Source: Actinomycetes bacterium
GTDB lineage: Bacteria > Actinomycetota > Acidimicrobiia > Acidimicrobiales > RAAP-2
Assembly (NCBI GenBank): GCA_021818025.1
Contig: JAKAFH010000004.1
Location: 1-47,839, forward strand
Reading direction: 5' to 3'
Length of the DNA stretch: 47,839 nt
A program made the position numbers and the translations under genes. Each line of letters starts with the position of its first letter. The first letter of the stretch is position 1. A model generated the notes under the pieces. It was not told the origin of the DNA. It worked only from the letters and a program-made list of their open reading frames with translations, and searched no databases. Shown here piece after piece: positions 29,589-37,767 of the stretch.

Positions 29589-29591
29589 CAT
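29586..29591 (+). promoter_or_regulatory. Putative -10 box (TAGCAT) before phosphomannomutase
   Basis: TAGCAT overlaps the upstream stop codon and the annotated ATG, and lies 7 nt before an in-frame GTG at 29599. This fits a leaderless transcript starting at that GTG. Confidence 0.4.
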
Positions 29592-30942
29592 GACCAGCGT
29601 GGATACCGACGCCATCTTCAAGGCCTACGACGTGCGCGGCACGTATCCCGACCAGCTCGACGAGGTCGTGGCCCGGGCCGTCGGTGCCGCCTTCGCCCGA
29701 TTCGCCCAGTCTCCGAGGCTCGTGATCGGTCGCGACATGCGCGAGTCGGGCGTCTCACTCAGTGCTGCCTTTAGTGACGGCGCGCGAGGCGAGGGCGTTG
29801 AGGTCGTCGACCTCGGCCTCGTCTCGACGGACCTGCTCTACTTCGCCTCGGGGTTCCTCGAATCGCCCGGCGCCATGTTCACCGCCTCGCACAACCCGGC
29901 GCGCTACAACGGCATCAAGCTCTGCCTCGCGGGGGCACGGCCGGTCGGGGTGGAGTCGGGACTGCTCGACATCGCCGCGGACGCCGAGCGCCTGCTCGGG
30001 GTCCAGGCGCCTCCACGGGCAGACCGGATCGAGCGGGACCTCTGGCCCGACTGGATCAGCCACGTGCACTCCTTCATCGACGTCACGGCCCTGCGGCCGC
30101 TGCGCATCGTCGCCGACGCCGCCAACGGCATGGGGGGCCTCGTGGCCCCGCGGGTCTTCGCGGGGCTGCCCGTCGAGCTCGAGGTGCTCTACCCCGACCT
30201 CGATGGCACCTTCCCGAACCACCCGGCCGACCCGCTCAACCCGGCGAACCTCGTCGACCTGCAGCGCCGGGTGCTCGAGACCGGGGCCGACATCGGGCTC
30301 GCCTTTGACGGCGACGCCGACCGGGTGTTCGTCGTCGACGAGCGCGCCGAACCGGTGTCAGGCTCGACGACGACCGCGATGGTCGCGGCCACCCTGCTCG
30401 ACCGCAACCCCGGCGCGACCGTGCTCTACAACCTCATCTGCTCCAAGTCCGTGCCCGAGGTCATCGCCGAGCACGGCGGCGTCGGGGTGCGCACGCGAGT
30501 CGGCCACAGCTACATCAAGCAGGTCATGGCCGAGACCGGCGCCGTCTTCGGCGGCGAGCACTCGGGCCACTACTACTACCGCGACAACTACCGCGCGGAC
30601 TCGGGCGTCATCACGGCACTCATCGTGCTCGAGCTGCTGAGCCGCTCGAGCGAACCGCTCTCGGCACTGCAGGCGCCCTTGCGGCGCTACGCCTCCTCGG
30701 GGGAGCGCAACACCGAGGTGGCCGATCCGGCCGCCACGGTCCGGGCCGTCGCCCGGCGCCTCGTCGCCGAGGGCGTCGCGGTCGACGAGCTCGACGGGCT
30801 GAGCGCCGACTACGGCTCGTGGTGGTTCAACCTGCGACCGTCCAACACCGAGCCGCTGCTGCGGCTCAACGTGGAGGCGGCCGACGACTCGAGCTGCGCG
30901 CGTCACGTCGAGGAGGTCCTCGCCATGATCAAGGAGGCGTGA
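29590..30942 (+). CDS. manB: Phosphomannomutase/phosphoglucomutase
   Basis: 450 aa. Alpha-D-phosphohexomutase with all four active-site loops: FKAYDVRGT at the N-terminus, the phosphoserine loop TASHNPARYNG (about 98-108), metal-binding FDGDADRVF (about 238-246), sugar-binding GGEHSGHYYYRD and the C-terminal phosphate-binding RPSNTEPLLRLN. It interconverts mannose-6-phosphate and mannose-1-phosphate, feeding the GDP-mannose route, perhaps through the nucleotidyltransferase at 12188. ATG 29590 is reported, but GTG 29599 is a strong alternative because a TAGCAT box stands 7 nt ahead of it and the protein would still begin right at the conserved domain. Overlaps the next gene by 1 nt. Confidence 0.93.
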   Translation: MTSVDTDAIFKAYDVRGTYPDQLDEVVARAVGAAFARFAQSPRLVIGRDMRESGVSLSAAFSDGARGEGVEVVDLGLVSTDLLYFASGFLESPGAMFTASHNPARYNGIKLCLAGARPVGVESGLLDIAADAERLLGVQAPPRADRIERDLWPDWISHVHSFIDVTALRPLRIVADAANGMGGLVAPRVFAGLPVELEVLYPDLDGTFPNHPADPLNPANLVDLQRRVLETGADIGLAFDGDADRVFVVDERAEPVSGSTTTAMVAATLLDRNPGATVLYNLICSKSVPEVIAEHGGVGVRTRVGHSYIKQVMAETGAVFGGEHSGHYYYRDNYRADSGVITALIVLELLSRSSEPLSALQAPLRRYASSGERNTEVADPAATVRAVARRLVAEGVAVDELDGLSADYGSWWFNLRPSNTEPLLRLNVEAADDSSCARHVEEVLAMIKEA

Positions 30943-31175
30943 TGGCTCTCGACTCGTTCCTGCTCGAACTGCTCGAGGACCCGGTCGACCACGGGCCGCT
31001 GCTGTACCTCGAGAGCGCGAGCGTGCTCTACAACCCGCGCCGTGGCGTCGCCTACGAGGTCCGCGGTTCGATCCCGGTGCTCTTGCCCAACGAGGCGCGG
31101 GCCGTCACGGACGAGGAGCGAGACCAGTACGGCGCGGATCCCGCGGCCCGTTCGACGGGTCGGCCGTCTAGCTGA
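30942..31175 (+). CDS. Trm112-like small protein
   Basis: 77 aa. SFLLELLEDPVDHGPL followed by YNPRRGVAYEVRGSIPVLLPNEARAV matches the Trm112/UPF0434 family ending 'yPIrdGIPvML..EAr'. The Cys pair that binds zinc in many members is absent (no cysteine at all). In actinobacteria such a gene follows manB, before a sugar isomerase; here it ends the operon. Role unknown. Its 3' end overlaps the convergent thiolase gene by 8 nt. Confidence 0.8.
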   Translation: MALDSFLLELLEDPVDHGPLLYLESASVLYNPRRGVAYEVRGSIPVLLPNEARAVTDEERDQYGADPAARSTGRPSS

Positions 31176-32376
31176 GCCGCTCGACGATCATGGCCATGCC
31201 CTGGCCGCCGCCGACACACATCGTCTCGAGCCCGTAGCGCGCGCCGCGGTCCTCGAGGCCGTTGAGCAGCGTGGTCATGATCCGAGCACCGGTCATGCCG
31301 AAGGGGTGCCCGAGCGCGATGGCCCCGCCGTTCACGTTGAGCTTGTCCCAGCTGATGCCCAGGTGCTTGGCCGAGGGGATCACCTGGGCGGCGAAGGCCT
31401 CGTTGATCTCGACCAGGTCGATGTCGTCGATGGTCAGGCCGGCGCGCGCGAGAGCCTGACGGCTCGCCTCGACCGGGCCCAGGCCCATGATCTCAGGGTT
31501 GAGCGCACTCACGCCGCTCGAGACGATGCGCGCGAGGGGCGTGAGACCGAGCGCCTTGGCGCGGGTGTCACTCATGACGATGACGGCGGCCGCCCCGTCG
31601 TTGAGCGGGCAGGCGTTGCCGGCCGTGACCGTGCCGCCCTCGCGAAAGACCGGGGCGAGGGCGGCGAGCTTCTCGAGCGTGGTACCGGCGCGCGGGCCGT
31701 CGTCGGTGCTGATCACGCGACCGTCGGGCAGGGTCACGGGGATGATCTCGCGCTCGAAGAAGCCGTTGTGCTGGCTGGCGACGGCGAGCTCTTGGCTGCG
31801 TAAGGCGAACTCGTCCATCTCGGCGCGCGAGACGTGCTCGTACTCGGCCACGTTCTCGGCGGTCTGGCCCATGGCGATGTAGACGTCGGCGAGTCCCGCG
31901 CTCGGGGCCCAGGGGTCCCCGACGCGCTCCGAGCGCGAGGCCGTCCGGGCAACCGCGTCGGCGAAGAGCGGGTTCATGGCCTTGGCGATGTCCGAGGCCC
32001 CGTTGCCAAAGCGCGACACCGTCTCCACGCCCGCGGCGATGAACACGTCGCCCTCGCCGGCCTTGATGGCGTGGGCGGCCATGCGGATCGTCTGCAGCGA
32101 GGAGGAGCAGTACCGGTTCACGGTCACCCCGGGCACGGTGTCCAGGCCCGCCAGGATGGCCACGACGCGCCCGAGGTTGAACCCGGATTCGCCCGCGGGC
32201 TGACCGCAGCCCATGATGAGGTCGTCGATCGTCGTGGGGTCCAGCTGGGGGACCTTGGCCAGCACCTCGGCGACGACGTGCGCGGCGAGGTCGTCGGGGC
32301 GCATGTCGACGAGCGAGCCCTTGAAGGCCCGGCCGATGGGCGTGCGGCCGGTAGCGACGATGACGGCTTCTGGCAT
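31168..32376 (-). CDS. Acetyl-CoA acyltransferase (thiolase)
   Basis: 402 aa. Thiolase fold: nucleophilic Cys in NRYCSSSLQT (about residue 88), NEAFAAQ (about 325), GHPFGMTGAR (catalytic His about 357) and the second active-site Cys in METMCVGGGQGMA (about 388). It cleaves 3-ketoacyl-CoA in beta-oxidation or condenses acetyl-CoA; sequence does not decide which, though the FadA-like NRYCSSS block leans to degradation. A Shine-Dalgarno GAGGAG is six nt before the ATG. Two AGTTAC repeats 32 nt apart lie upstream. It may be co-transcribed with the riboflavin-synthase-like gene 70 nt upstream. Confidence 0.93.
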   Translation of the reverse strand: MPEAVIVATGRTPIGRAFKGSLVDMRPDDLAAHVVAEVLAKVPQLDPTTIDDLIMGCGQPAGESGFNLGRVVAILAGLDTVPGVTVNRYCSSSLQTIRMAAHAIKAGEGDVFIAAGVETVSRFGNGASDIAKAMNPLFADAVARTASRSERVGDPWAPSAGLADVYIAMGQTAENVAEYEHVSRAEMDEFALRSQELAVASQHNGFFEREIIPVTLPDGRVISTDDGPRAGTTLEKLAALAPVFREGGTVTAGNACPLNDGAAAVIVMSDTRAKALGLTPLARIVSSGVSALNPEIMGLGPVEASRQALARAGLTIDDIDLVEINEAFAAQVIPSAKHLGISWDKLNVNGGAIALGHPFGMTGARIMTTLLNGLEDRGARYGLETMCVGGGQGMAMIVERLS

Positions 32377-32446: not shown

Positions 32447-32956
32447 TCAGCCCAGGTCGAGGGGGCCGGCGTCGTCAAATCCCTGGCGAATGCCCTGGCC
32501 GGCTCGTCGGGCCAGCTGCTCGGGTTCAAAGAGCATCCAGTAGGCGTTTCGCGCGTGCTTGCGCGAGCGGTTCTCAAAGACCGACGCCAGGACGGCCGGG
32601 TCGTCGGCCTCGTCCTCGTGGACGAAGACCTCGAGGATGGGCGTCGAGGTGAGCAGCTGGGCCTGCATGATGCCCAGCGCCGCCTCGTGCGCGCACTGCT
32701 TGTCGATGGGAGCCTTGCCGGGCATGCCCAGCGCGACGACGATCGAGCAGCCGTCGCGCTCGATGAGGTTCTTCGCCGCCACCGCCAGGTCCTTGAAGCC
32801 GGGGACCGTTCGCGAGACGACGGTGAATCGGCTGTCGAAGCCCGGACACTCGGCCAGCTCGGCGCGCGCCGCGGCTCCCATGTCGTAGCGGGCGAACATC
32901 GTGTCCACCACCCCGATGCGTACCGGGTCGTGGGCTGTGGAATCCTTCGTAGACAT
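32447..32956 (-). CDS. ribC: Archaeal-type riboflavin synthase (RibC)-like protein
   Basis: 169 aa. It resembles the riboflavin synthase of methanogens rather than the bacterial trimeric RibE: IGVVDTMFARYDMGAAA at the start, SRTVPGFKDLAVAAKNLI, IVVALGMPGK, CAHEAALGIMQAQLLT and VFVHEDEA, then WMLFEPEQLARRAGQGIRQGFDDAG near the end. The archaeal enzyme is a pentamer related to lumazine synthase and dismutates 6,7-dimethyl-8-ribityllumazine into riboflavin. The start ATG has GGAGG five nt upstream. No other rib gene and no FMN riboswitch is nearby. An IS607 element ends within 41 nt of the start, so its native promoter was probably displaced. Family assignment comes from memory of the archaeal sequence. 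Confidence 0.82.
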   Translation of the reverse strand: MSTKDSTAHDPVRIGVVDTMFARYDMGAAARAELAECPGFDSRFTVVSRTVPGFKDLAVAAKNLIERDGCSIVVALGMPGKAPIDKQCAHEAALGIMQAQLLTSTPILEVFVHEDEADDPAVLASVFENRSRKHARNAYWMLFEPEQLARRAGQGIRQGFDDAGPLDLG

Positions 32957-32969
32957 CGCTACCTCCGTT

Positions 32970-33150
32970 GCAACTGAGTGCACTCTAGTGAGTCCACTCA
33001 TGCTGCACTCCTCACGGAGTTGCTCGGCCCGACAGGTGCCGGACCTCCCTTTCGCGTGTCTTCGCCAGCCGCTGAGTGAGACCCAGTCTGACGCTCGGCT
33101 CCACGCTTCACCGGGGCTCTGACTGAGCCCAGGCTCGCCCAGCGGGCGAG
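32970..33150 (-). ncRNA. Expected omega-RNA (reRNA) region of the tnpB gene
   Basis: In IS607 and IS200/605 elements the guide RNA scaffold overlaps the 3' end of tnpB and the right end, with the guide copied from flanking DNA. Here that would put the scaffold across the last 45 or so codons, which encode a low-complexity tail after the last RuvC block, and the guide at the ribC 5' flank. Position and existence are inferred; no fold was computed. Confidence 0.35.
32975..33000. repeat. Two near-palindromic 11-mers at the tnpB-ribC junction
   Basis: TGAGTGCACTC (32975-32985, containing a perfect 10-bp palindrome) and TGAGTCCACTC (32989-32999) differ by one base and start 14 nt apart; the second overlaps the tnpB stop codon. 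They may be transposase-binding sites of the right end or an operator for ribC. Confidence 0.5.
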
Positions 33151-34362
33151 ATTGATGGCGGCGTTGTCGTCGCGCTGGTGCGACGAGGAGCACTCCTCAC
33201 AGGTCCAGTGCTCCAACCAGCCAATGTCTTGGACATGGCCACAGGCGTGGCACGTCTTTGATGAGGGAAAGAACCGGTCGGCTTCGATCAACTGCGACCC
33301 GTACCAGGGGCACTTGTAGCGAAGCTGACGACGGATTTCTCCGAGTGCCGCGTCGGAGAGCCCCCGTCGGCGCGAATGCGCACCGGGTAGTCCCTTCTGT
33401 CGCAGCAGCGACGCCGCGTCCAGGCCTTCGACCACCACCACGCCGTGGGTCTTGGCGAGGTGGGTGGTGAAGACGTGGATGGTGTGACGGCGAACGTGGG
33501 CGACCTGTGTGTGGAGTCGCGTGATCTTCGTGGCGCTCTGTCGATACTGTCGCGAACCACGGGTGCGCCTGGCCCGTTGGCGCTGGAGCCGACGCAGTTC
33601 GCCGAGGCGATGTTCGAGGGCTCGGGGGTTCTCGAGCCCGCCGATCACCTCGTTGGTGGTAGCGACGGTCGCGAGACGCCGCACGCCCACGTCAATACCG
33701 ATCACCGAGTCGGGTTGGGCAACGCCCGTGCGTTGGGGACGAGTGACACTCACTCGCACCGCCGCACTAATGCGCTCGCCTTGGCGTGAGACCGCGACGC
33801 CGAGGATCTTGGCTCGATTCAGTGCGATGAGCCGCTCGATGCGTCGGGTGTTCTCGTGGGTGCGGATGGTGCCGAGCACCGGGAGGGTCAGGTGGCGACG
33901 ATCGGCTTCCAGCCTCATGGTGCCAGTAGTAAAGGAAAATCGATCCCGGTCACGGCCACGCTTCTTGAACCGGGGAAAGCCGACTGGGCGGCCCCTGACC
34001 ACGCCCGTGCGCGACTGCTGCCAGCGCCAGTAGGCGTCGGTGGCGCCACGCACGCCGTCGGCGAAGACCTCCTTGGAGACCTCGGGCCACCAGACCTCAC
34101 CGGTCGCGGCGTCGACACAGACTTCGTCCTTCTGTGCGTTCCAGCGCTTGCGCAAGGCGTAGAAGGAGGGCGGGGTGCTTGACTCGCCGGTGTCGCGATA
34201 GTGCTCGAGGTCGGCTTTGATCTTCGCGAGCGTCCAGTTGAAGGACTTGCGGCGAGCGCCGAAGAACCGCGCGATCTGGACGGACTGTTCGGCGGTGGGA
34301 TCGAGCGCGAAGGCGAAGGCCTGGATGATCTGGCCATCGGGTGGGCAGTATCTAGGCGGCAT
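32998..34362 (-). CDS. tnpB: TnpB RNA-guided nuclease of the IS607 element
   Basis: 454 aa, apparently complete. N-terminal helix-turn-helix/wedge region with FFGARRKSFNWTLAKIKADL, then RuvC-like blocks: IGIDVGVRRLA (catalytic Asp about 222), VVVVEGLDA (Glu about 311), a zinc finger CHACG...CEEC (about 368-388) and RDDNAAINLARW (Asp about 396). TnpB proteins are omega-RNA-guided DNA nucleases that help the element persist at donor sites. All three catalytic acids and four zinc ligands are present, so activity is plausible. The tail of 45 residues after INLARW is probably non-catalytic and overlaps the guide-RNA scaffold. Overlaps tnpA by 11 nt. Confidence 0.93.
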   Translation of the reverse strand: MPPRYCPPDGQIIQAFAFALDPTAEQSVQIARFFGARRKSFNWTLAKIKADLEHYRDTGESSTPPSFYALRKRWNAQKDEVCVDAATGEVWWPEVSKEVFADGVRGATDAYWRWQQSRTGVVRGRPVGFPRFKKRGRDRDRFSFTTGTMRLEADRRHLTLPVLGTIRTHENTRRIERLIALNRAKILGVAVSRQGERISAAVRVSVTRPQRTGVAQPDSVIGIDVGVRRLATVATTNEVIGGLENPRALEHRLGELRRLQRQRARRTRGSRQYRQSATKITRLHTQVAHVRRHTIHVFTTHLAKTHGVVVVEGLDAASLLRQKGLPGAHSRRRGLSDAALGEIRRQLRYKCPWYGSQLIEADRFFPSSKTCHACGHVQDIGWLEHWTCEECSSSHQRDDNAAINLARWASLGSVRAPVKRGAERQTGSHSAAGEDTRKGGPAPVGPSNSVRSAA

Positions 34363-34930
34363 CAGCTTCTTCCTGACCTGCCGAAAGGACTTTCGCCGCT
34401 CGGTGTGCGGCCGCGCGTTTGCCGTAGAGGCGAGCGCAGAAGGAGGTCAGCACCTCGGTCATGTCGCGCACGAGGTCGTCGTCGACTTCCGCGTCGTCGA
34501 CCACGAGACGTCGGCCATTGGCCTGAAGCGTGGCAGCGACATACTCGGAGCCGAATCTAGCGAGGCGGTCCCGGTGTTCGACGATGATGGTCGTGACCGT
34601 CGCGTCGGAGAGGAGCCCGAGGAACTTGCGGCGCTGGCCATTGAGACCGGACCCGATCTCGGTCACGACACGGTCAATCGAATGGCCGTTCGTTGTCGCC
34701 CACGTGGTGACCCGCGCAACTTGGCGGTCGAGGTCTTCTCGTTGGTCGGCTGAGGAGACCCGCGCATAACTGACGGTCGACCCACTGTGGGGTGTTGCGG
34801 TTTCGAGATCGCCGACGAGAATCAAGCGCCCGACCTGACGCGCAGGCACCGGCAGCGTCCCTTCACGGAACCACCGATAGGCGGTCTGGGGATGGATCCC
34901 CTGCATGTCCGCCCACTCACTCACGTTCAT
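34352..34930 (-). CDS. tnpA: IS607-type serine recombinase transposase (TnpA)
   Basis: 192 aa. Residues 1-50: MerR-like helix-turn-helix (SEWADMQGIHPQTAYRWFREG). Residues 55-190: resolvase catalytic domain, with VSYARVSSADQREDL giving the nucleophilic Ser (about 57-58), EIGSGLNGQRRKF, and the IIVEHRDRLARFG block. The reversed order, DNA-binding domain first, is the hallmark of IS607 transposases, which move the element through a circular intermediate with little target preference. No Shine-Dalgarno sequence is seen; a hairpin lies right against the start codon. Confidence 0.93.
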   Translation of the reverse strand: MNVSEWADMQGIHPQTAYRWFREGTLPVPARQVGRLILVGDLETATPHSGSTVSYARVSSADQREDLDRQVARVTTWATTNGHSIDRVVTEIGSGLNGQRRKFLGLLSDATVTTIIVEHRDRLARFGSEYVAATLQANGRRLVVDDAEVDDDLVRDMTEVLTSFCARLYGKRAAAHRAAKVLSAGQEEADAA

Positions 34931-34931
34931 T

Positions 34932-34951
34932 GCTACGAAGTCTTGCGTAGC
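34932..34951. other. Inverted repeat abutting the tnpA start codon
   Basis: GCTACG and CGTAGC flank an 8-nt centre, 1 nt upstream of the tnpA ATG. It covers the place where a ribosome-binding site would lie, so it may be the left-end recombinase site, an autoregulatory operator, or an mRNA hairpin that limits translation. Confidence 0.45.
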
Positions 34952-34994
34952 GGTGTCACATCAGATGGCAGCCCCCGCCAGTGTAGGGATTCGC

Positions 34995-35948
34995 TCAGCG
35001 AGGAGCGAGGCCGAGAATCGCCTCCTCGAGGGTGACGCCCACCGGCACGATCGCGATGGTCGGCACCGCCACGCCCGCGTCGACGTAGCGCGCGACGTGG
35101 TCGCGGCACGCGTCATAGGACCCGTGGATGATCAGCGCGTCCACGACCTCGTCGGGGATCGCCGCGTTGGCGAGCTTGCGGTCGCCGGCGGCCCAGGCCT
35201 CCCACATCGGGCCGAGCTGCTCGGCGCGTCCGAGCCACCGGTGGAACTCGGCGTAGGCCCTGACCGTGAGGTACGAGGAGATCATCCGGCGCCCGACGGT
35301 GCGCGCGAGGTCGGCGTCGGGCGTGGGCACGACGAACAGACGGGCCGCGATGGTCTTGTCGAGGCCCACCTCGGCGCGACAGGTCGCCACGTCCTCGGCG
35401 GCGAGCCAGTTAAGGATCGCCCCGTCGGCCTCGGCGCCGGCGAGTCGGAGCATGGTCGGGCGCAGCGCGCCGAGCAGGATCGTCGGGCGCTGGGTCACCG
35501 GGCGCGAGAGCTTAAAGCCGTGGATGGCGAAGGTGTCGAATTCCTCGTCGATCTTCTCGCCGGCGAGCGCCCGATTCACGAAGCGAAGGACGTCGCGGGT
35601 GCGTGCGAAGGGCCGCTCGTAGGCGATGCCGTTCCAGCGCTCGACGACCGGCTGGCTCGAAGCGCCGAGGCCGACGATGAGCCGGTCGCCGGCGACCTCG
35701 GCCAGCGCCGCGATCGTCATGGCGAGCAGGCCCGGCCCGCGGGTGAAGGTCGGCGCCACCGCGAGCCCGAGGTTGAGCCGCGGCTCCCACGCCGCGGCGA
35801 GGGCGAGTGGCGTGAACCCGTCGGTGCCATCGACCTCGGCGGACCAGACGTCGGTGTAGCCGAGGTCCACGAGGCGCGTGTACCACGCGCGGTGCTCGGC
35901 CAGCGTGACGCCGTCGAAGGGGATCGTGATGCCGTAGCGCGAGGTCAT
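34995..35948 (-). CDS. Luciferase-like oxidoreductase, probably F420-dependent
   Basis: 317 aa, bacterial luciferase-like TIM barrel. Begins YGITIPFDGVTLAEHRAW with LGYTDVWSAEVDGTDGFTPLALAA, AVAPTFTRGPGLLAM, DRLIVGLGASSQPVVERWNG (the glycine-rich phosphate loop) and the ending GSYDACRDHVARYVDAGV. Family members oxidise or reduce small organic substrates with F420 or FMN; the F420 genes in the same window favour F420. Substrate unknown. The stop lies 64 nt from tnpA on the same strand. Confidence 0.88.
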   Translation of the reverse strand: MTSRYGITIPFDGVTLAEHRAWYTRLVDLGYTDVWSAEVDGTDGFTPLALAAAWEPRLNLGLAVAPTFTRGPGLLAMTIAALAEVAGDRLIVGLGASSQPVVERWNGIAYERPFARTRDVLRFVNRALAGEKIDEEFDTFAIHGFKLSRPVTQRPTILLGALRPTMLRLAGAEADGAILNWLAAEDVATCRAEVGLDKTIAARLFVVPTPDADLARTVGRRMISSYLTVRAYAEFHRWLGRAEQLGPMWEAWAAGDRKLANAAIPDEVVDALIIHGSYDACRDHVARYVDAGVAVPTIAIVPVGVTLEEAILGLAPR

Positions 35949-35969: not shown

Positions 35970-36752
35970 CTAGTGCAGGTAGTCATCGCCGCGCGCGGGC
36001 GGCACGGTGAAGCCGCGACGCTCGAGGTCTCGTTCCCAGCGATCGATCACCGTCTCGAGCACCGCCACCCGGGCGTAGTGCTTGTCCTCGGCGGCGATCA
36101 GGTCCCAGTGCGCGTGGGCGTGGTCGGTCCAGTCGAGCAGGTCGGACAGCGCGTCGAGGTAGGCAGGGCGCAGGCCGCGGTTGCGCCAGTCGTCCGGGGT
36201 CAGCTTCCAGTGCTTGAGCGGGTCCTTGGCGCGAACGTTGAAGCGCGACAGCTGCTCGTCGTCCGAGATGTGCAGCCACAGCTTGACGATCGTGACCCCG
36301 TCGTTGACCAGGGATCGCTCGAACTCGACGATCTCCTCGGCCGAACGCTTCACGGTGTCGTGGTCGATCAGCTCCTCGACCCGCTCGACCAGGAGCCGGC
36401 CGTACCAGGACCGGTCAAAGACCGTCATCTCGCCCCAGCCGGGCAGGTGCGGCCAGAACCGCCAGAGGAAGTGGTGACGCCGCTCCTCGTCGGTGGGAAC
36501 GCTGATCGGGATCACCCGCACGTGGCGCGGGTCGAGTGCACCGGTGAGCCGACGGATCGCGCCGCCCTTGCCGGCGGCGTCGAAGCCCTCGAAGAGCACG
36601 ATGAGCCCGGGACCGGTCTGGTGGGGCTCGAGCAGCCCCGCGGTCAAGAGGCGCAGGTGCACCAGCCGGCGCTGGGCGGCGAGGATGCGCACCTCGGATT
36701 CCTCGCGCGAGAGCTTGGCGGTGAGGTCGATTCCGTCGATGGCTTTGCTCAT
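35970..36752 (-). CDS. Polyphosphate kinase 2 family enzyme (PPK2)
   Basis: 260 aa. Single PPK2 domain: Walker A LFEGFDAAGKGGAIRRL (about 51-67), RHHFLWRFWPHLP, Walker B-like TVFDRSWYGRLLVERVE (about 109-125), then the lid and FNVRAKDPLKHWKLTPDDW. PPK2 enzymes use polyphosphate to phosphorylate nucleoside mono- or diphosphates, or run in reverse. I chose ATG 36752, with GGGAGG three nt upstream; ATG 36767 is possible. It is 21 nt ahead of the oxidoreductase gene, so the two are probably co-transcribed. Together with Ppx it indicates active polyphosphate turnover. Confidence 0.93.
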   Translation of the reverse strand: MSKAIDGIDLTAKLSREESEVRILAAQRRLVHLRLLTAGLLEPHQTGPGLIVLFEGFDAAGKGGAIRRLTGALDPRHVRVIPISVPTDEERRHHFLWRFWPHLPGWGEMTVFDRSWYGRLLVERVEELIDHDTVKRSAEEIVEFERSLVNDGVTIVKLWLHISDDEQLSRFNVRAKDPLKHWKLTPDDWRNRGLRPAYLDALSDLLDWTDHAHAHWDLIAAEDKHYARVAVLETVIDRWERDLERRGFTVPPARGDDYLH

Positions 36753-36811
36753 CACCCTCCCAGTCATGGTCACGGTATCGCACGTGGTCGTGCTCGTCAG
36801 GTCGCGTTTCG

Positions 36812-36817
36812 TAGGAT
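36812..36817 (+). promoter_or_regulatory. Putative -10 box (TAGGAT) for the surface-protein operon
   Basis: TAGGAT is 17 nt before ATG 36835, leaving room for a short leader with a GGGAGGG ribosome-binding site. It stands back to back with the PPK2 start region. Confidence 0.4.
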
Positions 36818-36834
36818 TGGGCGAGGGAGGGTTG

Positions 36835-37767
36835 ATGCGCGCGAGACTCTGGGTGGCGGCGATCGCCGCACTCGCGCTGCTCCCAGTCACGCTGGGTGCC
36901 GCGGCACCGCTCAGTCAGCCACGGCCCGTTTGCCTTCGGGGTTTGACGCCGAGCTCGCCCGGACCGGGGGCGATCTGTTCGCACTGGCGGCGACTCGACC
37001 CGTGGTCGCGGGTGCCGACCGTCTACGCCACGACCTTTCGACCCGATCCCCACGGCGCGACGATCGTGTACGCGACCTGGCTGCGTAGTTCGGCCTCGAT
37101 CCTGGCGCTCTATCCCGGTTACCTCGGCCCGGGCGCGACCACGCTGGCCCGAGGCCCCGAAGAGGTGCCCCCGACGGCGCGGGGCCGGCTGCTCGCGACC
37201 TTCAACGCCGGCTTCTACGAGGCCGACAGCGCCGGGGGGTTCTACGTGAATCGCACGCTCTACTTCCCGATGCTGCGCGGGCTCGCCACGGTCGTGCGCT
37301 ATCGCACGGGCGCCGTGGACGTCGTGAGCTGGGCCGGCGGGCCCCGCCCGGGGGCGAACGTGGTCATGGCCCGACAGAACCTGTCGCTACTCGTGGCGAA
37401 CGGGCGCCCGACGGCGCTCGCCGCTGATAACGCGGCGTGGGGACTCACCTTGCACGGCGTGCCCGCCGTGTGGCGAACGGCGCTCGGGATCGACGCGGCC
37501 GGCAACCTGATCTACGCCGCGGCCCCGGCCCAGACGGCGGCGAGCCTCGCCCAGGTGATGGTGGACCTGCACTGCGTGCGCGCCATGGAGCTCGACATCA
37601 ACCCCGAGTGGCCGATCTTCGTCGCCTACGGCCGTCCGGGCGCGGGCCAGGCGTCCCTCGTCGTGCCCAACCCGAACCAGATCCCGGGCCGTTTCCTCTA
37701 CCCGAGCACCAAGGACTTCTTCGCGCTGTTCCAGACCACGACGCCCGGTGAAGCCCAGCCGTGGTAG
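36835..37767 (+). CDS. Secreted phosphodiester-glycosidase-family (NAGPA-like) protein
   Basis: 310 aa. Signal peptide in residues 1-23 (MRARLWVAAIAALALLPV start, cleavage near GAAAP). Residues about 115-300 resemble the NAGPA domain: LLATFNAGFYEADSAGGFYV, the LSLLVANGRP strand and MELDINPEWP in place of the family's 'LDGGGS'. NAGPA proteins cleave sugar-phosphodiester links, for example capping sugars on phosphorylated glycans. Being exported and directly ahead of CapA, it may act on a surface polymer. RBS GGGAGGG four nt before the ATG. Function is inferred from the fold. Confidence 0.75.
   Translation: MRARLWVAAIAALALLPVTLGAAAPLSQPRPVCLRGLTPSSPGPGAICSHWRRLDPWSRVPTVYATTFRPDPHGATIVYATWLRSSASILALYPGYLGPGATTLARGPEEVPPTARGRLLATFNAGFYEADSAGGFYVNRTLYFPMLRGLATVVRYRTGAVDVVSWAGGPRPGANVVMARQNLSLLVANGRPTALAADNAAWGLTLHGVPAVWRTALGIDAAGNLIYAAAPAQTAASLAQVMVDLHCVRAMELDINPEWPIFVAYGRPGAGQASLVVPNPNQIPGRFLYPSTKDFFALFQTTTPGEAQPW

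Follow-up and report, generated by a model that had tools for sequence, protein, structure and literature searches.

An archaeal-type riboflavin synthase apparently replaces RibE in a lineage of Actinomycetota

We conclude, with high confidence, that the ribC gene on the 47,839-nucleotide stretch of DNA analyzed here (the window) encodes an archaeal-type riboflavin synthase, that this enzyme is the only riboflavin synthase of its bacterium, and that the gene was acquired, most likely horizontally, in an ancestor within the order, with ribE being lost and inheritance being mainly vertical thereafter. The observations behind this reading are of several kinds: the protein belongs to the family and is predicted to adopt its fold, no RibE is detectable in the genome, the rib operon lacks ribE, the two types of synthase have a near-complementary distribution, and the gene is under purifying selection. 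The reaction and products of the archaeal riboflavin synthase family are well established. The features of the window that bear on this gene are as follows:

29590..30942, plus strand: phosphomannomutase/phosphoglucomutase, beyond the thiolase (NF007088, 604.4 bits, just below the cut-off of 618)
31168..32376, minus strand: thiolase, acetyl-CoA C-acetyltransferase, a conserved neighbor downstream of ribC (NF005890; NCBIfam, Pfam)
32447..32956, minus strand: ribC, archaeal-type riboflavin synthase, 169 aa (TIGR01506, PDB 2b98, AF2/Foldseek, dN/dS)
32957..32966, minus strand: Shine-Dalgarno segment of ribC, GGAGGTAGCG, kept beside the IS607 insertion (sequence, comparison with relative L072)
32967..34971, minus strand: IS607 element, ~2.0 kb, at a GG in the spacer between the LLM-class oxidoreductase and ribC (blastn breakpoints against the empty site of L072)
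32998..34362, minus strand: IS607-family TnpB, RNA-guided endonuclease, 454 aa (NF038280, 559.6 bits, cut-off 350)
34352..34930, minus strand: IS607-family transposase TnpA, serine recombinase, 192 aa (NF033518, 208.1 bits, cut-off 110)
34995..35948, minus strand: LLM-class F420-dependent oxidoreductase (TIGR03841, 279.7 bits, cut-off 213.65)
35970..36890, minus strand: PPK2-family polyphosphate kinase, a conserved neighbor (PF03976)

The ribC start is an ATG preceded by a GGAGG ribosome-binding segment, both of which are shared by a 97% identical relative (L072); the mechanically called open reading frame over the gene is longer, beginning at a GTG at 33193 and encoding 248 aa. The 169-aa protein matched the NCBIfam profile TIGR01506 (ribC_arch) with an E-value of 1.5e-52 and 177.5 bits, against a curated equivalog cut-off of 100.55, and the alignment covered essentially the full profile (positions 2-151 of 151). 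In Pfam, it matched the lumazine-synthase-fold family PF00885 (54.2 bits) and gave no match to PF00677, the two lumazine-binding repeats of bacterial RibE, while its score against the NCBIfam lumazine synthase profile TIGR00114 was 26.8 bits, under the cut-off of 84.6. An earlier note, made from the DNA sequence, had called the product an archaeal-type riboflavin synthase devoid of RibE-type repeats on the strength of six motif blocks; the profile results bear out both parts of this call, and all six blocks are readable in the translation.

A sequence search of the PDB returned 2b98 as the best solved match (E 5.2e-51), and the solved sequence relatives were the riboflavin synthase 2b98/2b99, which we take to be that of Methanocaldococcus jannaschii, together with three of its designed or fused derivatives. 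An AF2 monomer model (mean pLDDT 88.4) likewise found 2b98_C as its best Foldseek match (E 2.1e-19, 55% identity, rmsd 1.3, TM-score 0.85/0.94, 0.85 by query), an entry titled as archaeal and pentameric, with lumazine synthases trailing from E 9e-9 onward. As modeled, the protein would have the fold of the solved archaeal enzyme and not a duplicated lumazine-binding barrel. Together, the TIGR01506, Pfam and Foldseek results rule out a lumazine synthase or an unrelated family as the best match.

Compared with archaeal RibC (2b98/2b99), the window protein shares the family, the predicted fold, 55-56% identity over about 150 residues and the conserved blocks, including CAHEA and VFVHEDEA; it differs in being bacterial, with a RibD-RibBA-RibH operon in its genome, and in carrying about 9 extra N-terminal residues. 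Lumazine synthase RibH (PF00885, TIGR00114) shares its fold superfamily with RibC (Foldseek E between about 1e-8 and 1e-5), yet RibC fails the TIGR00114 cut-off, and the genome has separate RibH genes. Bacterial RibE (PF00677), in turn, catalyzes the same reaction at the same place in the pathway with an unrelated sequence. An alignment of 11 RibC sequences, including the 2b98 stretch, contained 56 invariant columns, and dN/dS values of 0.09, 0.11 and 0.07 against three relatives place ribC under purifying selection. Archaeal contamination was ruled out: the same ribC flanks recur in many relatives, the window has 70% GC overall, and the third-position GC of ribC is 0.89.

Searching the bacterium's own genome (97.5% complete) with PF00677, as the earlier note had advised, revealed no RibE, and the same search was positive in 11 of 14 control genomes. 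Profile searches and operon reading established that the genome encodes RibH, RibD and RibBA, and a ribD-ribBA-ribH operon without ribE was read on two contigs, so that ribC is indeed unlinked to the rib operon, as first noticed. The two operons of this assembly (L154 on contig C133 and L155 on contig C24) encode proteins that are 87, 96 and 91% identical, reflecting either operon duplication or the presence of a sister species in the bin. At Rfam gathering thresholds, no FMN riboswitch was found on ribC in the window; among 11 rib-operon loci scanned, one was found in 2 of 5 loci of RibE-positive genomes and in 0 of 6 loci of RibC-positive genomes.

To place this gene among its relatives, we compared the occurrence of the two synthases across genomes. 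In a sample of 296 genomes of the class, TIGR01506 exceeded its cut-off in 21 and PF00677 in 224; the two were never over the cut-off together (0/296), and 51 genomes had neither. The hypergeometric probability of this lack of overlap, 1e-14, ignores kinship and is overstated, related genomes not being independent. RibH and RibD were over their cut-offs in all 21 RibC-positive genomes, one of which (G106) gave a sub-threshold PF00677 match (E 1.8e-4). A sample of the order (397 genomes) contained 56 RibC-positive genomes distributed over 11 family codes (f1, f5, f13, f23, f24, f25, f122, f125, f140, f143 and f152). PF00677 was positive in two (G901 and G833) of the 36 further RibC-positive genomes that this sample supplied; thus, 55 of the 57 RibC-positive genomes of the class and order samples were without RibE. 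A sample of the phylum (396 genomes) yielded nine RibC-positive genomes, all in f1 and f5 of the same order, and no RibC over the cut-off was found outside this order among the 296 class and 396 phylum genomes.

A scan of GTDB genomes with the window protein confirmed at least 570 relatives. The best 80 of these are close relatives, all titled as MAGs, 77 as Actinomycetota or Acidimicrobiales/-aceae and three as Acidobacteria (L080, L087 and L116); at 79-90% identity, we took the last three titles to be wrong. No relative was confirmed in viral contigs and no phage match was obtained, excluding phage or viral carriage of ribC.

Some genomes of the order lack both enzymes. Three of the 14 genomes of the bacterium's own genus had neither RibE nor RibC, and two of these (G102, locus L165, and G235, locus L166), reduced genomes of 1.5 Mb that share a very long RpoB branch, keep the ribE-less ribD-ribBA-ribH operon, implying either a riboflavin pathway with no recognizable last enzyme or gaps in both assemblies. 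Four nearly complete genomes (G002, G019, G051 and G267) had no RibE, RibC, RibH or over-threshold RibD and are probable riboflavin auxotrophs. In G075, RibD was present, and RibE, RibC and RibH were not found.

The rib operon itself was surveyed by reading ribD, ribE, ribBA and ribH with tblastn in 51 operon stretches, 36 of which came from 32 of the 57 RibC-positive genomes or from the two ribC-less members of the own genus. Among the readable operons of RibC-positive genomes, 30 of 32 (the 30 coming from 29 genomes) had ribD directly before ribBA with no ribE; ribE was present in the remaining two, one from G833 and one on contig C321 of G901. Two further rows from RibC-positive genomes were unreadable: L300 (a G716 ribBA without ribD, a second G716 ribBA being unread) and L311 (at a contig end). 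By comparison, ribE stood directly before ribBA in all 15 operons of RibE-only genomes, only one of which (G148) is outside the order, and ribD preceded ribE in 14 of 17 ribE operons, counting G833 and G901, the other three having no ribD on the stretch. Since nearly all readable operons of RibC-positive genomes join ribD to ribBA where RibE-only operons hold ribE, it appears that ribE was lost and that ribC took over. The simplest reading of these gene orders is an ancestral ribD-ribE-ribBA-ribH operon that would have lost ribE, with an unlinked ribC doing its work.

The two genomes that carry both enzymes provide no clean intermediate of this swap. G901 has a ribE-less operon on contig C266, whose RibBA is sister to those of G173 and G840 of f13. 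Its other operon includes ribE and lies on a 9.4-kb contig; the RibBA encoded there groups with G285 (f16) and with G261 (SH-aLRT 91), the latter being an f13 genome with RibE only. This ribE operon of G901 could be a product of misbinning or a genuine second operon of f13. The rib operon stretch of G261 (L280, contig C52), which keeps ribE, has 42.5% GC, as opposed to 69-74% in ribC or rib stretches of the f13 relatives G901, G943 and G840, and a second ribB match lies on contig C49. In G833, a separate gene pair (L278, 5495-6462) accompanies a full ribD-ribE-ribBA-ribH operon; the pair consists of an NF009084-type lumazine synthase gene directly followed by a divergent ribC in which CAHEA reads CAGDA, and is a candidate for a specialized flavin or lumazine function.

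In an RpoB tree of 58 rows, a clade of 28 (SH-aLRT 86) contained all 21 RibC-positive genomes of the class sample, the remainder being four RibE-only rows (G261 of f13 and three f3 rows) and three own-genus rows with neither enzyme. Similarly, all ribE-less rows of the RibBA tree fell within one clade of 36 (SH-aLRT 98) that also contains three RibE rows (one from f22 and two from f3), whereas the unreadable L300 and the f3 row G014 are outside it. Because the RpoB clade includes four RibE-only rows, a single swap is unproven: the trees are compatible with one early swap that had reversals or exceptions, and also with a few swaps. The RibC tree, in which the 2b98 stretch is the sole archaeal sequence, broadly follows families, and RibC and RpoB distances were correlated across 21 genomes (Spearman 0.56, a value reached by 0 of 2000 permutations). 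It conflicts with the RpoB tree in that G047, G106 and G118 nest in the own genus and G231 groups with f23. In one tree, the divergent copy from G833 was the sister of the Streptomyces RibC, which, with G833 left out, stood among the sequences of the order with weak support. Going by these trees, inheritance of ribC within the order looks mainly vertical, with no recent import by this strain. The earlier note had suggested a horizontally acquired replacement. The replacement holds, given the missing RibE, the ribE-less operon and the near mutual exclusion of the two enzymes; horizontal acquisition is a natural inference, as ribC_arch was restricted to the order in our samples and ribE occupies that place in RibE-only operons.

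The surroundings of ribC are conserved as well. PPK2, the LLM oxidoreductase, ribC, the thiolase and the opposite-strand phosphomannomutase recur together in closer relatives, and across the loci of the best 80 of at least 570 relatives, many of them cut by contig ends, we counted the LLM oxidoreductase in 52, the thiolase in 49, PPK2 in 45 and the phosphomannomutase in 40 (identity floors, 35% for LLM and 45% for the thiolase). In the closest relative, L072, the LLM oxidoreductase is directly upstream of ribC, with 30 bp from its stop to the ribC start. In the window, the thiolase adjoins ribC as previously described, whereas the F420-type oxidoreductase, also described as a neighbor, is separated from it by the IS607 element, whose ends were deduced by reference to the empty site of L072. 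No IS607 TnpA or TnpB was matched in the ribC loci of the best 80 of the at least 570 relatives. The element also separates the ribC Shine-Dalgarno segment from a TACACT motif, present in L072-L075 as well, which we read as a putative -10 element; the only riboflavin synthase gene has perhaps been parted from its promoter.

Could RibC instead be a paralogue recruited to another lumazine, pteridine or specialized flavin pathway, an auxiliary enzyme like the RibE2 of roseoflavin clusters, with RibE merely missing from the assemblies? A homologue in Streptomyces camelliae, 63.6% identical, does belong to a rosB cluster, where riboflavin transport genes adjoin it, and G833 has its lumazine synthase-ribC pair besides a full operon. 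We nonetheless consider recruitment very unlikely, as RibE is absent from 55 of 57 RibC-positive genomes, ribD and ribBA adjoin each other on a single contig, with no ribE between them, in 30 of 32 readable operons, and the neighbors of ribC, recurring in many relatives, resemble central metabolism and form no biosynthetic cluster. The earlier suggestion of recruitment to another pteridine or lumazine reaction thus found no support, since without ribC an otherwise complete upstream pathway would lack its last step.

The timing of the acquisition can be questioned from two sides. An ancient vertical inheritance, with ribC_arch present in the ancestor of Actinomycetota and lost elsewhere, would agree with the spread of ribC through the order (56/397 genomes, 11 family codes) and with a tree broadly arranged by family, yet it is about as improbable as recruitment: RibC was over the cut-off in this order alone among 296 class genomes, all nine RibC-positive genomes among the 396 of the phylum belong to f1 or f5 of the order, and ribE precedes ribBA in 15 of 15 RibE-only operons, although only that of G148 is from outside the order. 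At the other extreme, the TnpA-TnpB pair immediately upstream of ribC might suggest a recent, strain-level import with the IS607 element. This we regard as almost certainly wrong, given that ribC lies between the same LLM oxidoreductase and thiolase in element-free relatives (L072-L075 and others), and that the element interrupts a short spacer that is intact in L072; this empty site refutes an IS607-borne import.

Taken together, these results favor acquisition within the order, for which we propose the following course. An unlinked ribC would have been acquired, most likely by horizontal transfer, in an ancestor within the order (the relatives' NCBI titles being Acidimicrobiaceae/Acidimicrobiales), ribE would have been lost from between ribD and ribBA, and the resulting arrangement would since have been passed on mainly vertically; an archaeal donor and this order of events are what we infer. 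In the present-day cell, RibD, RibBA and RibH of the same genome would make 6,7-dimethyl-8-ribityllumazine, and RibC, with its lumazine-synthase fold and expected homopentameric state, would act as the sole riboflavin synthase, dismutating two 6,7-dimethyl-8-ribityllumazine molecules into riboflavin and 5-amino-6-ribitylaminouracil, an activity deduced from the completeness of the pathway.

Of note, archaeal-type synthases have a precedent in the phylum. As described in the accessible part of one study (PMC11039241), the roseoflavin-producing Streptomyces davaonensis and S. berlinensis have an archaeal-type RibE2, encoded by an extra gene in the rosB cluster, which its authors attribute to horizontal transfer. 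We found that the S. camelliae plasmid copy of RibE2, seen in a rosB cluster, passes the TIGR01506 cut-off (163.2 bits). RibE2 and the window protein are thus both archaeal-type riboflavin synthases in Actinomycetota; they differ in that RibE2 is an extra gene of an antibiotic cluster, whereas the window ribC encodes the only detectable synthase and stands among genes of central metabolism. In the open-licence literature, we found no published report of a bacterial group whose sole synthase is an archaeal-type RibC. The enzyme family and the Streptomyces precedent are known, and the sole reliance of a bacterial lineage on this enzyme was not found in that literature.

The portions available of a review (PMC10366380) describe archaeal riboflavin synthase as homopentameric, in contrast to the trimer of bacteria, and those of a second article (PMC13376624) state that in some bacteria a C-terminal signal targets RibE to the inside of RibH cages. 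A bolder idea, which we think unlikely, is that this lineage now uses a single pentameric fold for both riboflavin synthase and lumazine synthase, the trimeric RibE guest with its C-terminal cage signal being gone and pentamers of RibC possibly pairing or co-assembling with those of RibH, and that the swap may be reversible, ribC and ribE having traded places several times in the order. If true, RibC-RibH pairing or co-assembly would give the two final steps of vitamin B2 synthesis a new architecture.

These findings describe what looks like a clear case of non-orthologous replacement, widespread in a large and mostly uncultured lineage of actinobacteria, in which an essential vitamin enzyme has given way to a type best known from archaea. 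The route of this replacement can be traced through the operon scar that joins ribD to ribBA, the ribE operons of relatives and the mixed family f13. Annotation or metabolic modeling that seeks RibE alone would label RibC-only organisms as riboflavin auxotrophs, and inhibitors directed against the trimeric enzyme might miss the RibC type.
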